Positions 28,685 to 61,696 of a DNA stretch of 64,000 nucleotides are shown here, in pieces (positions within the stretch are counted from its first letter, which is position 1; each line of letters begins with the position of its first letter). Source of the stretch: Saccharopolyspora soli (GTDB lineage: Bacteria > Actinomycetota > Actinomycetes > Mycobacteriales > Pseudonocardiaceae). The position numbers and the translations under genes were made by a program. The stretch is from positions 186,001-250,000 of the forward strand of contig NZ_JALBWV010000001.1 of assembly GCF_022678645.1 (NCBI RefSeq), written 5' to 3'. A model generated the notes under the pieces. It saw nothing but the letters and a program-made list of their open reading frames with translations. It did not search any database and was not told the origin of the DNA.

Positions 28685-28852
28685 CTCGTTTTGCGTGGCG
28701 GCGCGGGTAGCGGAACCTCAGAAGCCATCTCGGTCCGGGATCCCCGACATCAGGTATGCCGATACACCACGTCGTGGCTGTCCTCCCGAGACGACCTCTG
28801 AGAACCCGCGGCGGTGCAAGCGCCTTGCATGGGCTAAGCGGCTGCGCCGCTT
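28685..28852 (+). repeat. Intergenic repeat family 2, copy C (structured)
   Basis: This stretch matches the reverse complement of 60382-60545, with identical blocks such as CTCGTTTTGCGTGGCGG near one end and GAACCCGCGGCGGTGCAAGC near the other. It can fold as nested stems: outer CTCAGA/TCTGAG (28717-28722, 28797-28802), inner TCTCGG/CCGAGA (28728-28733, 28786-28791), a small GTAT/ATAC hairpin (28754-28765) and a distal AAGCGG/CCGCTT hairpin (28836-28852). The other copy keeps the same stems with compensatory changes. It lies upstream of the dehydratase gene, between it and the SDR gene. Confidence 0.88.
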
Positions 28853-28864
28853 CAGAACAAGAAC

Positions 28865-29638
28865 TCAGGAGAGGAGTTGTCCGCCGGAGACGTTGATCTC
28901 GACGCCGACCGCGTGCTGAGCCCGGTCGGAGGCCAGGAAGACGACCCAGTTGGCCACGTCGTCGGCCTGCCCGACGCGGCCGATCAAGGTGCGCTCGCGG
29001 ACCCTGTCGTACGCGCCGGGCTGCGACATCCACCCCTGCGTCATCGGCGTTTCGATGTTGCCCGGCGAGACGCAGTTGACGTTGATGTTGTACGGCGCCG
29101 CGAACCGCGCCAAATCCTTGGTGTAGGACAGGATTCCGCCGAACGCCGCGTCGTAGCCGGGGATGCCCGCGCTCACCCCGTGCGCGGTGAACGAGCACAT
29201 GTTGACGATCTTGCCGTAGCGGCGCTCCATCATCTTCGGCAGCACGGTCTGGCAACCGAGGAAGACACCGGTCAGGTGCCCGTCGATCTGCCGGTGCCAT
29301 TCCGCGTCGTCGGTCTCCAGGTGCCCGCTGACCGGAGCTGGCGCCGGACCGGCGATGTTGCACAAGATGTCGATCTCGCCCAGGTCGCGCTCGACGGATC
29401 CGACGAGTTCCCGCCAGCCGTCGCGGCTGGTCACGTCGAGCGGATAAGCCCGGCACGAGCCCGATCCGCCGTCGAGTTCTCCGATCACCGCGGAGACACC
29501 GGCTTCGTTCAGGTCGGCACCGCCGACCCGCGCTCCCTCGGCTGCCAGCGTCGTCGCGACCGCCCGCGCCAGACCGGACGCGGCGCCGGTCACCACCGCC
29601 ACCTTGCCGTCGAGTGACAGATCCACGATTTCTCCCAT
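28865..29638 (-). CDS. SDR-fold protein with altered catalytic motifs
   Basis: A 257-residue short-chain dehydrogenase-fold protein. The cofactor motif reads TGAASGLA, where the last glycine of the usual TGxxxGxG is alanine. The active-site segment reads GYDAAFGG, so the lysine of YxxxK is phenylalanine; the usual NNAG motif reads CNIAG. The serine region is CSFTAHG. The remainder (CVSPGNIETPM, VFLASDRA, INVSGGQLL) is ordinary. It sits directly after the ABC permease genes, so a role in the sugar pathway is likely, but normal NAD(P)H redox chemistry is doubtful. ATG at 29638 has GGAGA upstream; an alternative start is 29674. Confidence 0.82.
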   Translation of the reverse strand: MGEIVDLSLDGKVAVVTGAASGLARAVATTLAAEGARVGGADLNEAGVSAVIGELDGGSGSCRAYPLDVTSRDGWRELVGSVERDLGEIDILCNIAGPAPAPVSGHLETDDAEWHRQIDGHLTGVFLGCQTVLPKMMERRYGKIVNMCSFTAHGVSAGIPGYDAAFGGILSYTKDLARFAAPYNINVNCVSPGNIETPMTQGWMSQPGAYDRVRERTLIGRVGQADDVANWVVFLASDRAQHAVGVEINVSGGQLLS

Positions 29639-29657
29639 CTTCTCCAGCCGTGCCGGG

Positions 29658-30542
29658 TCAGCCTCGAACCGCACCGGCGACGAGTCCCTTGACGAGATAG
29701 CTCTGCGCGAACCAGACGAACAGCAACGTCGGAACGACCATCAGGACACCGGCCGCCGACATCGGGCCCCAGTCGATGCCGAACTGGGTGACGAAGTTGG
29801 TCAGCCCGACCGGCAGGGTCTGGGCGGCCTCGCTGAAGGTCAGCGTGAGCGCGATCAGCAGATCGTTCCAGGTGAACAGGAACGTCAACACCGCGCTCGC
29901 GGCCAGCCCTGGGCCGATCAGCGGCGCCACGACCAGCACCAGCCGCTTGACCACGCCCGCTCCGTCGATCTCCGCGGACTCCTCGATCTCCCTGGGCAGG
30001 TCCTGGATGAAGGCCATCAGCAGCCAGATCGCGACCGGGAGTTTCGCGGCGGTGTGGGTGAGGATCAGCGCCCAGACCGAGTCCAGCATCCCGATCGAGG
30101 AGAACACCGCGAACAGTGGGATCGCGAAGGCGATGACCGGGATCATCCGCATCACCAGCAGCACGCCGACGATGACCTTGACGCCGGGCAACCGGATCCG
30201 CGCCAGCGCGTAGGCGGCGGGCAGCGCCAGGACCGTCACGAGCACGACCGTGGCCAGCGATACCACCACGGAGTTCACCAGGTAGTCGGCCATGTTGTAG
30301 TCGCTGAAGACCTTGATGTACTGGCTGAGCGTGACCGACTTCGGGATCAGTTCCACCGGCGTCGCGAAGATCTCGTCCGTCGTCCGCAGCGATGTCACGA
30401 TCAGCCACAGCAGTGGGAAGATCGACAGGAAGACCGTCCCGACGAGCACCACGTAGCGCGCCACCAGGCCCGCGTTCACCCGCCTGCCGCGGGTCAGCGC
30501 GGATCCCGTCGTGTTCCGGGTTTCGAAGGCCAGCTCGGTCAT
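29658..30542 (-). CDS. CUT1 ABC sugar permease (MalG-like)
   Basis: A 294-residue permease with six helices and the EAA loop EIEESAEIDGAGVVKRLVLVVAPL (about 190-215). It is the second membrane subunit of a carbohydrate-type ABC importer and its start overlaps the MalF-like stop (ATGA). No ATPase gene is present in this operon. Confidence 0.9.
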   Translation of the reverse strand: MTELAFETRNTTGSALTRGRRVNAGLVARYVVLVGTVFLSIFPLLWLIVTSLRTTDEIFATPVELIPKSVTLSQYIKVFSDYNMADYLVNSVVVSLATVVLVTVLALPAAYALARIRLPGVKVIVGVLLVMRMIPVIAFAIPLFAVFSSIGMLDSVWALILTHTAAKLPVAIWLLMAFIQDLPREIEESAEIDGAGVVKRLVLVVAPLIGPGLAASAVLTFLFTWNDLLIALTLTFSEAAQTLPVGLTNFVTQFGIDWGPMSAAGVLMVVPTLLFVWFAQSYLVKGLVAGAVRG

Positions 30543-60292: not shown

Positions 60293-60381
60293 GCTCGGCA
60301 CTCCTGAATCAGTCCCTGGATGGTTGATTTCTGATTGGGCCGCAGCCGCGATACCCCACGCGACGGCGGGTGAGCTGCCGC

Positions 60382-60545
60382 AAGCGCGCAGCGCTTAACC
60401 CACCCTCGCCGCTTGCACCGCCGCGGGTTCTGAGCGGTTTTCTCGCGAGGACAGCCCCTCCGCCGCGTATTGGACATACATCAGGGGCTCCCACAGTCGA
60501 GAAGGCCGCTCAGGTTCCGCCACCCGCACCGCCACGCAAAACGAG
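60382..60545 (-). repeat. Intergenic repeat family 2, copy D (structured)
   Basis: Reverse-complement match of 28685-28852. Stems: outer CTGAGCGG/CCGCTCAG (60430-60437, 60506-60513), inner TTCTCG/CGAGAA (60440-60445, 60498-60503), GTAT/ATAC (60467-60479) and AAGCGC/GCGCTT (60382-60396). Compared with copy C the third and sixth pairs of the outer stem and the last pair of the distal hairpin change on both sides together. It lies between two convergent genes, so a simple 5' leader role is unlikely here. Confidence 0.88.
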
Positions 60546-60560
60546 CCTGAAATCAACTAT

Positions 60561-61499
60561 TTAGAAGACGATGACCAACCGACCGCGCGTGCCACCGGCT
60601 TCGAGAGTCCGGTGCGCTTCGCCCGCCTGCTCGGGCTCGAACGTCCGGGCCACCCGCAGGGTGATCGCACCGTCCTCGACCTGCTGGCGCAGCCGGTCGA
60701 GCTTCGCGTTCTCGCGGAAGTACTCGCGCACGAACACCGGGTGGTACTTCACATTCCGCTCCGCCTCGCCGTCGAATCCGCGAACCGTCGCCACACCACC
60801 ACCGTCTCGCACGGCGGGAACCACCAACTCGTTCAGCAATGCGGTGTCGACCACGCCGTGCACCCCTTCGGGCTCGACCTCGCGGATCCGGGCGGCCACA
60901 TCGTCGCCCCGGTCGACCACGACGTCCGCACCCAGGCTCCGCACCAGTTCGCGGTCGCGCTCGGCGGCGTCGGCGATCACCTGAAGGCCGTCGGCTTTGG
61001 CGAGTTGGATCGCGTAACCACCGAGTGCACCGGCGGCACCCGTCACGGCGAGCACTTGGCCAGCGTCCAGCGCGAGCATGTCCAACGCCATCCGGGCGGT
61101 CAGCCCGTTCATCGGCAACGTCGACGCGGCCACGTCGTCCACCCCGGCCGGGACGCGAACGACCGATTCCGCTGGCAGGACCAGGCTTTCGGAGTACCCG
61201 CCGTGCGACCCGCGGGGCACCACTATCGCCATCACGTGATCGCCCACCCGCAGATCGGTCTGCGCGCCCGCGCCGATCTCGTCGAGCACCCCGGCCACGT
61301 CCATCCCCGGCACGTACGGCGGCGGATGCTCGGCCAACAACTCGGCCCGAGCCCCGTTGCGGATGAAGGTGTCGGTCGGGTTGACCGTGGCGGCGTGCAC
61401 CCGGATGCGCACCTCGCCGGTACTGGCATGCCGCTCGGGCACATCGACGACGCGAAGGGCCTCCGGCCCACCGAACTCGGTTACTCCAACAGCTCGCAT
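60561..61499 (-). CDS. Zinc-type quinone oxidoreductase / MDR-family reductase
   Basis: A 312-residue medium-chain reductase lacking structural zinc ligands: GroES-like N-domain (VHAATVNPTDTFIRNGARA, YVPGMDVAGVLDEIGAGA), cofactor loop VTGAAGALGGYAIQLAKADG (about 148-167). Family members reduce quinones or enones with NADPH. The start at 61499 gives the typical N-terminus MRAVGVTEFGGPEALRVVDVP; the site upstream is weak. Divergent from the GntR gene at 61718. Confidence 0.88.
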   Translation of the reverse strand: MRAVGVTEFGGPEALRVVDVPERHASTGEVRIRVHAATVNPTDTFIRNGARAELLAEHPPPYVPGMDVAGVLDEIGAGAQTDLRVGDHVMAIVVPRGSHGGYSESLVLPAESVVRVPAGVDDVAASTLPMNGLTARMALDMLALDAGQVLAVTGAAGALGGYAIQLAKADGLQVIADAAERDRELVRSLGADVVVDRGDDVAARIREVEPEGVHGVVDTALLNELVVPAVRDGGGVATVRGFDGEAERNVKYHPVFVREYFRENAKLDRLRQQVEDGAITLRVARTFEPEQAGEAHRTLEAGGTRGRLVIVF

Positions 61500-61647
61500 A
61501 CCGAGCACAATTCCAGACCGCGCCGAGGTATTCCTGGCCCGGCACCGGAACCGACCGAGCAGTGGGCGGATTGCGCGGTTCGGGCGCGGCCGTCGAGATT
61601 GATCAACAATCTCTTTGCGTGTTGTCCGTGGTATGTCCGTTAACTGA

Positions 61648-61696
61648 GCCAAATTTGGCGTATGGGCTGCTGGATATTGGCCTTGATTGTTGAACA
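61648..61696. promoter_or_regulatory. Palindromes in the divergent oxidoreductase/GntR promoter
   Basis: GCCAAATTTGGC (61648-61659) is a perfect 12-base palindrome and TGTTGAACA (61688-61696) a second short one. The AT-rich region between 61600 and 61710 separates the divergent genes, so these are candidate regulator or promoter sites; TTGATT near 61683 could be a -35. Confidence 0.4.

Follow-up and report, generated by a model that had tools for sequence, protein, structure and literature searches.

A large family of short mobile elements with a covarying core at the 3' ends of genes in Pseudonocardiaceae

Introduction

Most bacterial MITEs are regarded as decaying leftovers of insertion sequences, and MITEs are commonly palindromic. 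ERIC, Correia/NEMIS, RUP and BOX are palindromic repeats dispersed between genes, and their transcripts can fold. The REP/BIME repeats, which are associated with RAYT transposases, are extragenic, palindromic, present in many copies and often located 3' of genes. REPs are about 20-40 bp long and, to our knowledge, lack inverted ends with a target duplication.

Two repeats in the window (the whole stretch of 64,000 nucleotides of Saccharopolyspora soli DNA analysed here) are members of a large family of short mobile elements from a single family of soil-dwelling actinobacteria. Like the MITEs of the IS5 superfamily, whose target is TNA, these elements are short, showed no transposase of their own nearby, carry inverted ends in their better-kept copies and, at some pairs of ends, TNA-type direct repeats, reach a high copy number and occur in internal-deletion forms. 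Unlike those MITEs, they contain a covarying core of about 165 nt, have several end types, are spread over 13 genera and lie at stop codons preferentially in one orientation. ERIC, Correia/NEMIS, RUP and BOX, compared from their descriptions (the database searched was Rfam), are alike in being dispersed palindromes but differ in sequence, host and size. The REP/BIME repeats are similar in location and palindromy, whereas the core of the element described here measures about 165 nt and is bounded by ends at which the target is repeated.

The two copies had been said to match no described family that was known, and no Rfam family reached its gathering score in the stretches searched: the window gave no match, and none came near threshold at copy A, at locus L204 or at four other loci. 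The best candidate was DUF3800-IV, which is alike in having covarying stems with conserved loops; its score of 18.2 bits at copy A (E 1.9), against a gathering score of 60.7, is that of a chance match. In the openly available full-text literature, which holds few subscription papers, we found no description of the element or of matching MITEs of Saccharopolyspora or Pseudonocardia.

The two copies in the window

The two repeats had been predicted to be reverse-complement copies of a single element, and one covariance model (R1, built exclusively from copies in other genomes) covers both at full length. The third-best R1 match within the window scored 16.4 bits. The features of the two copies, and the genes that stop beside them, are as follows.

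28689..28853, + strand: conserved core of copy A (model R1, 157.5 bits, E 7.8e-32, positions 1-165 of 165)
28717..28732, + strand: left arm of the main stem (S1) of copy A, pairing with 28787-28802; stem backed by 47 copies
28787..28802, + strand: right arm of S1 of copy A, from sequence and 47-copy covariation
28836..28852, + strand: distal hairpin of copy A, AAGCGGC-TGC-GCCGCTT (helix 5, 99.1% paired in 47 copies)
28865..29674, - strand: SDR gene, whose stop codon is separated from the right end of core A by about 11 nt
60323..60331, - strand: opposite arm of the outer inverted repeat of copy B, GAAATCAAC
60381..60541, - strand: conserved core of copy B (model R1, 157.0 bits, E 9.8e-32, positions 1-165 of 165)
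60382..60396, - strand: distal hairpin of copy B, AAGCGC-TGC-GCGCTT
60430..60445, - strand: right arm of S1 of copy B
60498..60513, - strand: left arm of S1 of copy B, pairing with 60430-60445
60549..60557, - strand: outer inverted repeat of copy B, GTTGATTTC, a candidate element end; the ends of L081 are similar
60561..61652, - strand: zinc-type dehydrogenase gene, whose stop TAA precedes the left end of core B by 19 nt

The right stem arm, the hairpin and the opposite arm of the outer repeat of copy B were read from the sequence. The paired differences that had been reported between the copies are all present: the third pair of the outer stem is C-G in copy A and G-C in copy B, the sixth is A-T in copy A and C-G in copy B, and the distal hairpin is AAGCGG/CCGCTT in the one and AAGCGC/GCGCTT in the other. 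When folded alone, copy A gave a z of -4.2 and copy B a z of -3.2, and in each case 0 of 200 shuffles were as good. The original prediction spanned the shared core only, and beyond it the ends of the copies differ: those of copy A are decayed ends of what we call type 1 and those of copy B are the 9-bp GTTGATTTC inverted repeat. The gene contexts agree with the earlier description, as copy A lies between two '-' genes, 3' of the SDR gene and 5' of an MR/MLE-type dehydratase gene, and copy B lies between convergent genes.

Copy number and taxonomic range

The 20-base 5' core was observed at 250 places in the genome from which the window comes (G000; 9.35 Mb in 184 contigs) against 2 places for the reversed pattern, with up to 3 mismatches allowed. 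Exact-pattern matches were also found in S. shandongensis and S. elongata. Of 360 candidates from a first look, 40 were scored by BLAST. BLAST matches were obtained in 20 of 21 other Saccharopolyspora genomes and in none of 19 genomes of other genera. The resulting impression of a Saccharopolyspora-only repeat was overturned by the covariance model, with which 56 of 200 Pseudonocardiaceae genomes and 13 of 46 genera were positive (at most 14 best matches per genome). A draw of 200 genomes from across the order gave 12 positives, all of them Pseudonocardiaceae, under stricter filters by which weak matches were lost and with the best 14 matches per genome. Homologues in actinomycete genomes, which a search with a covariance model had been proposed to reveal, were found in large numbers.

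Structure and covariation of the core

In the orientation of copy A, the order within the core is TTTTGCGTGGCGGTGCGGGTnGCGGAACCTCAG, a stem interrupted by two internal loops and capped by a terminal loop, CTGAGAACCCGCGGCGGTGC, a spacer that varies and, last, the hairpin AAGCGGC-TNC-GCCGCTT. Copies were collected through sequence similarity or because they matched the 5' core or the 5' arm of the stem, and this inflates conservation at the 5' side.

Our alignment of copies from other species (A2) holds 47 of 70 eligible cores; 60 were retrieved and 13 of those were removed by hand without a recorded rule. In this alignment 94.1% of the cells are paired compared with 82.3% in shuffles. Changes on both sides were observed in 193 cells, compared with 62.7 in shuffles and at most 30 in slid controls, and are found in 19 of the 41 pairs; many copies share changes by descent and the cell counts therefore overstate the number of independent events. 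The covariation score is 0.270 against 0.078 in shuffles, and none of 500 shuffles reached any of five covariation measures, with slid versions far lower; the structure was defined from these same sequences, which favours it over its slid versions, and the shuffles ignore the relatedness of the copies.

Pairing of stems S1 to S4 extends to 53 copies from other genera, with 2021 Watson-Crick, 63 A.C, 19 G.T and 63 other cells, in an alignment (A3) that was fitted to the model and from which the last 3 of 56 rows, partial reverse matches, had been removed. Loop motifs, for example GCGGAACC and GCTGTCCTCGC, are nearly fixed in these genera. The covariation that had been claimed from the two window copies is proved by the 47 other-species copies and not by A and B alone. 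Of the wider claim, selection on a folded RNA or a cruciform, the selection on a fold is supported by covariation far above shuffles and slid controls.

Paired changes might also appear in an ordinary MITE without a selected fold, by templated correction of one arm from the other and by the founding of subfamilies. The sharing of changes by descent fits such an origin. So does the larger number of broken S1 pairs in the copies of the source genome (79 of 1248 cells) than in those of other species (15 of 1248), in tallies from which 2 of 80 and 18 of 96 copies pairing at fewer than 12 of the 16 arm positions were dropped (no anchor, or inserts in an arm), a rule that favours pairing; the S3 and S4 tallies also needed a minimum of pairing. 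However, the covarying pairs differ both within and between the 13 genera, and the unpaired motifs match the stems in conservation, a result that templated correction leaves unexplained. Between the left and right arms of the type-1 ends, moreover, consistent mismatches persist that were never corrected. We regard an ordinary MITE as quite improbable.

A subgroup of copies of the source genome (L031, L038, L040, L060, L062, L090, L135, L136 and L188) has an extra hairpin-like insert that ends in CCAGTGGGCACAG or CCGCATGGCACCG and is located in the right arm of the main stem.

Ends, insertion sites and mobility

The elements are about 210 nt long, and several end types were observed outside the core, which overturned the notion of a repeat with a single set of ends. 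The inverted ends of type 1 have the form GAGCCTGTCTT...AAGACAGGC. Terminal inverted repeats are thus present in type-1 copies, decayed in copy A and represented by the 9-bp outer repeat alone in copy B. Among 25 paired ends from loci of the source genome, identical triplets were found at the expected offset in 8-9 pairs compared with 0-2 off the diagonal. TNA stands on both sides in 9 of these 25 pairs, and the two triplets agree in 8 of the 9 (shuffle mean 5.1, p = 0.03). Other end types carry other direct repeats.

One clean insertion is that of L020, a reverse copy whose flanking gene pair is conserved in the six relatives examined. The site is without the element in four of them (G008, G017, G013 and G014), and G005 and G006 hold unrelated sequence of 89 and 131 nt there and are not clean empty sites. 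In the filled site of the source genome, the element is bordered on both sides by TGA, the triplet with which the left gene stops. The direct repeat spans TCTGAGT, and its exact length is therefore not fixed. An empty site together with TGA at both ends indicates that the element moves like a MITE.

A target-site duplication had been suggested as a check on the ends of the two window copies. It was found, with an empty site, at this one other member of the family and not at copies A and B, whose ends are decayed or without a matching duplication; at copy B, which has the outer inverted repeat GTTGATTTC, no matching target duplication was seen. All 7 of 7 close orthologues of the gene adjacent to copy B stop at the same codon and are without the element. 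For the dehydratase gene beside copy A, the search for usable orthologues gave only short or weak matches.

Forms with internal deletions that keep both ends were seen at a minimum of 8 of the 20 loci inspected, and forms without the main stem persist. In L180, L181 and L183 the deletion lies between two GCGGTGC repeats that flank the main stem.

Inverted ends in type-1 copies, a target duplication with an empty site at one locus, the absence of an internal transposase and a high copy number are all features of MITEs. The MITE-like reading, which together with a small RNA had been preferred to a riboswitch for the two copies, gains support from the homologues, the inverted ends, and the empty site and repeated target found within the family.

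A search with PF13586 for an autonomous partner gave 7 matches. Our searches identified no autonomous element with identical ends. L175 in the source genome is an IS5-type element with DUF4096 and DDE_Tnp_1 domains, whose ends GAGCCTGTTCTTGAACTTG resemble GAGCCTGTCTTCGAACTCG of the type-1 copies. The ends are similar but not identical, the adjacent triplets are TGA and TCA, and no core was found inside it. A transposase beside the core was sought with four query proteins, the L175 transposase and three other ORFs of transposase loci, and no relative of any of them was present at the loci holding a core. Likewise, no full-length element of about 1 kb with type-1 ends was seen by eye among 84 end-like places.

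Placement at the 3' ends of genes

The copies are located close to stop codons, preferentially at the left end of the core. Among the 164 copies whose flanks were long enough, 101 have a stop codon no more than 30 nt from the left end of the core, 28 from the right end and 115 from either end; at up to 120 nt from either end the count is 151. In 91 of the 164 copies the stop lies 12-25 nt before the left end. A stop near the left end only was observed in 62 copies and near the right end only in 24 (p = 5e-5), and between co-directional genes the two orientations occur 72 and 27 times (p = 7e-6). These counts rest on gene calls from a simple rule of open frame and G+C3, and the copies in them are not all independent. 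The co-directional gene has its 3' end on the left in 122 of the 163 copies for which both genes were called. In other genera, the left stop is within 30 nt in 38 of 53 copies compared with 8 of 53 on the right. Copy B has the majority orientation and copy A the minority one, with its right end beside the SDR stop.

Only 14 of the 163 copies are flanked by divergent gene pairs. This location rules out a riboswitch or other 5' leader, and a riboswitch had indeed been judged the poorer fit. A standard intrinsic terminator, with a U-run, was also considered, and no U-run was seen behind the hairpins in the aligned copies. Inspected by eye, these copies have A-rich sequence on the '+' strand and AGCCCACC on the '-' strand after the distal hairpin.

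The 129 adjacent stop codons comprise 91 TGA, 26 TAG and 12 TAA. TAG is not a TNA triplet.

Orthologous sites

We found 22 pairs of copies at matching places, after the same gene, in different genomes. In the 11 pairs whose flanks and core are at least 90% identical, conserved columns changed at 19 of 1077 positions (1.8%) and variable columns at 28 of 446 (6.3%; p = 1.2e-5); the columns were classed on the basis of other copies. The flanks of the same pairs diverge by 2.0% on the left and 3.5% on the right. The same pattern, with most change in the variable columns, would result from ectopic gene conversion, and the column result therefore supports selection in place and does not prove it. 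In the remaining 11 pairs the core is more diverged than the flanks and the copies belong to different subtypes, as repeated insertion or conversion gives. Since these deep pairs carry different subtypes behind the same stop, some shared sites may be repeated insertions, which weakens retention at orthologous sites as proof of a host function. Taken together, the element is real, numerous and mobile in origin, and it is very probably selected for its fold.

These pairs bear on a further explanation, in which the core is a structured RNA adopted by the host, as a protein-bound, 3'-UTR or antisense module of many genes, and transposition is merely the means of its spread. Such a module would account for the 22 pairs behind the same gene, for the slower change of conserved columns at fixed sites, and for unpaired motifs that are invariant across genera alongside covarying stems. 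Yet the copies turn over, as that of copy B is absent in 7 of 7 orthologues and that of L020 in 4 of 6 relatives, and the deep pairs differ in subtype behind the same stop. We consider a module maintained by the host in this way to be somewhat unlikely.

A separate observation concerns L207 in G014 and L368/L341 in another genus, which lie beside what is apparently the same gene. Their flanks are 79% and 73% identical, and the cores are very different, with 13-14 fully compensated pairs.

Strand and nature of the folded molecule

The departures from Watson-Crick pairing in S1 are asymmetric. In the middle of S1 (columns 37-42), the 53 other-genus copies have 47 A.C, 2 G.T and 5 other cells on the '+' strand, and an A.C on '+' is a G.U or G.T on '-'. 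The nearly exclusive G.U on the '-' strand would also fit a host RNA. Over the whole of S1, A.C exceeds G.T by 102 to 15 in other species, where 61 of the 102 come from one position, and by 89 to 38 in the source genome. Outside S1 there is little asymmetry (46 against 34 and 52 against 30). One-sided changes in the orthologous pairs comprise 32 A.C, 14 G.T and 27 other.

The excess of A.C over G.T in S1 is only suggestive of the '-' strand, which consensus folding favours as well; it conflicts with single-sequence folding energy, which favours '+' in 61 of 78 other-species copies, and with gene context, which also favours '+'.

GNA triloops are very stable in DNA, and the distal loop is GNA on the '-' strand. 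Both kinds of wobble pair are, in addition, rare outside S1 and about equal on the two strands (34 G.T and 46 A.C against 1643 Watson-Crick cells in other species). Both observations fit a single-stranded DNA or a cruciform that is recognised by a transposase or a host factor during transposition or replication. However, the single clean insertion is what a double-strand DDE process with a repeated target would leave, and we know of no DDE transposition that requires a folded internal strand. Internal-deletion forms with both ends also exist, and these may have moved after they lost the core. A role of the fold as DNA is in our view unlikely.

An RNA-seq study of S. erythraea (PMC3610266), in the part accessible to us, describes pervasive transcription, with antisense transcription enriched at gene 3' ends. 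That pattern, as far as this part of the study goes, is compatible with RNA made from the elements and is not evidence for it, and it would also suit a host RNA.

Origin and role of the core

We think it probable that the element is a non-autonomous IS5-like MITE in which selection maintains the single-strand fold of a core of about 165 nt, a fold that would act at the 3' ends of genes. An IS5-family transposase (DUF4096/DDE_Tnp_1) would move the element in trans and would duplicate a TNA triplet, which in a G+C-rich genome would often be a TGA or TAA stop. Retention of the core would be explained by an action of the folded form, most likely as RNA, at the 3' end of the host gene. The core may act there as a transcript-end module in termination, end protection or antisense transcription, so that insertions at these sites would be tolerable or useful. 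The copy number, the type-1 inverted ends, at least one clean insertion, the bias to 3' ends and the covariation of the core are observed. Several observations stand against this explanation: the many copies with other or decayed ends, the 26 TAG codons among the 129 adjacent stops, the failure of our searches to identify an autonomous partner with identical ends, the lack of a clean duplication at copies A and B, the unrelated sequence at the L020 site in G005 and G006, the conflicting indications of strand, the persistence of forms without the main stem and the missing U-run.

The core is better kept than the ends, covaries strongly, is common to several genera and is biased to 3' ends, unlike what is expected of a decaying leftover. 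If it acts as RNA, then an uncatalogued 3' module is shared by hundreds of genes per genome, in a family with many antibiotic producers. A tentative extension, which we hold to be possible, is that the element is a mobile structured-RNA module with an uncatalogued fold, present in at least 13 genera of Pseudonocardiaceae, that was installed behind the stops of at least 100 genes per genome and then selected. In that case a transposon would have distributed a common 3'-end regulatory element genome-wide. The existence of both empty and filled orthologous sites would then make the family a tractable case of transposons seeding regulation.

Other palindromes in the window and around element copies

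A palindrome, CGATTTCGCGCGAAATCG, has two near-copies in the window at 1125-1142 and 1168-1185, with none expected in shuffles. It was also observed in L099 and within the extra sequence of G005 and G006 at the L020 site, and is probably another dispersed repeat. An inverted pair resembling GTGAAGGGCACCTTT is found in the window at 2236-2250 and 2268-2282, and palindromes like GTGAAGGGCACCTTT flank the element copies L064, L078 and L159, as if these had been inserted at the centre of the palindrome. Similarly, the copy in L093 (about 1440-1760) is located within a near-perfect inverted repeat, GCTCGTGAG...CTCACGAGC, and resembles an insertion at the centre of a terminator-like palindrome.
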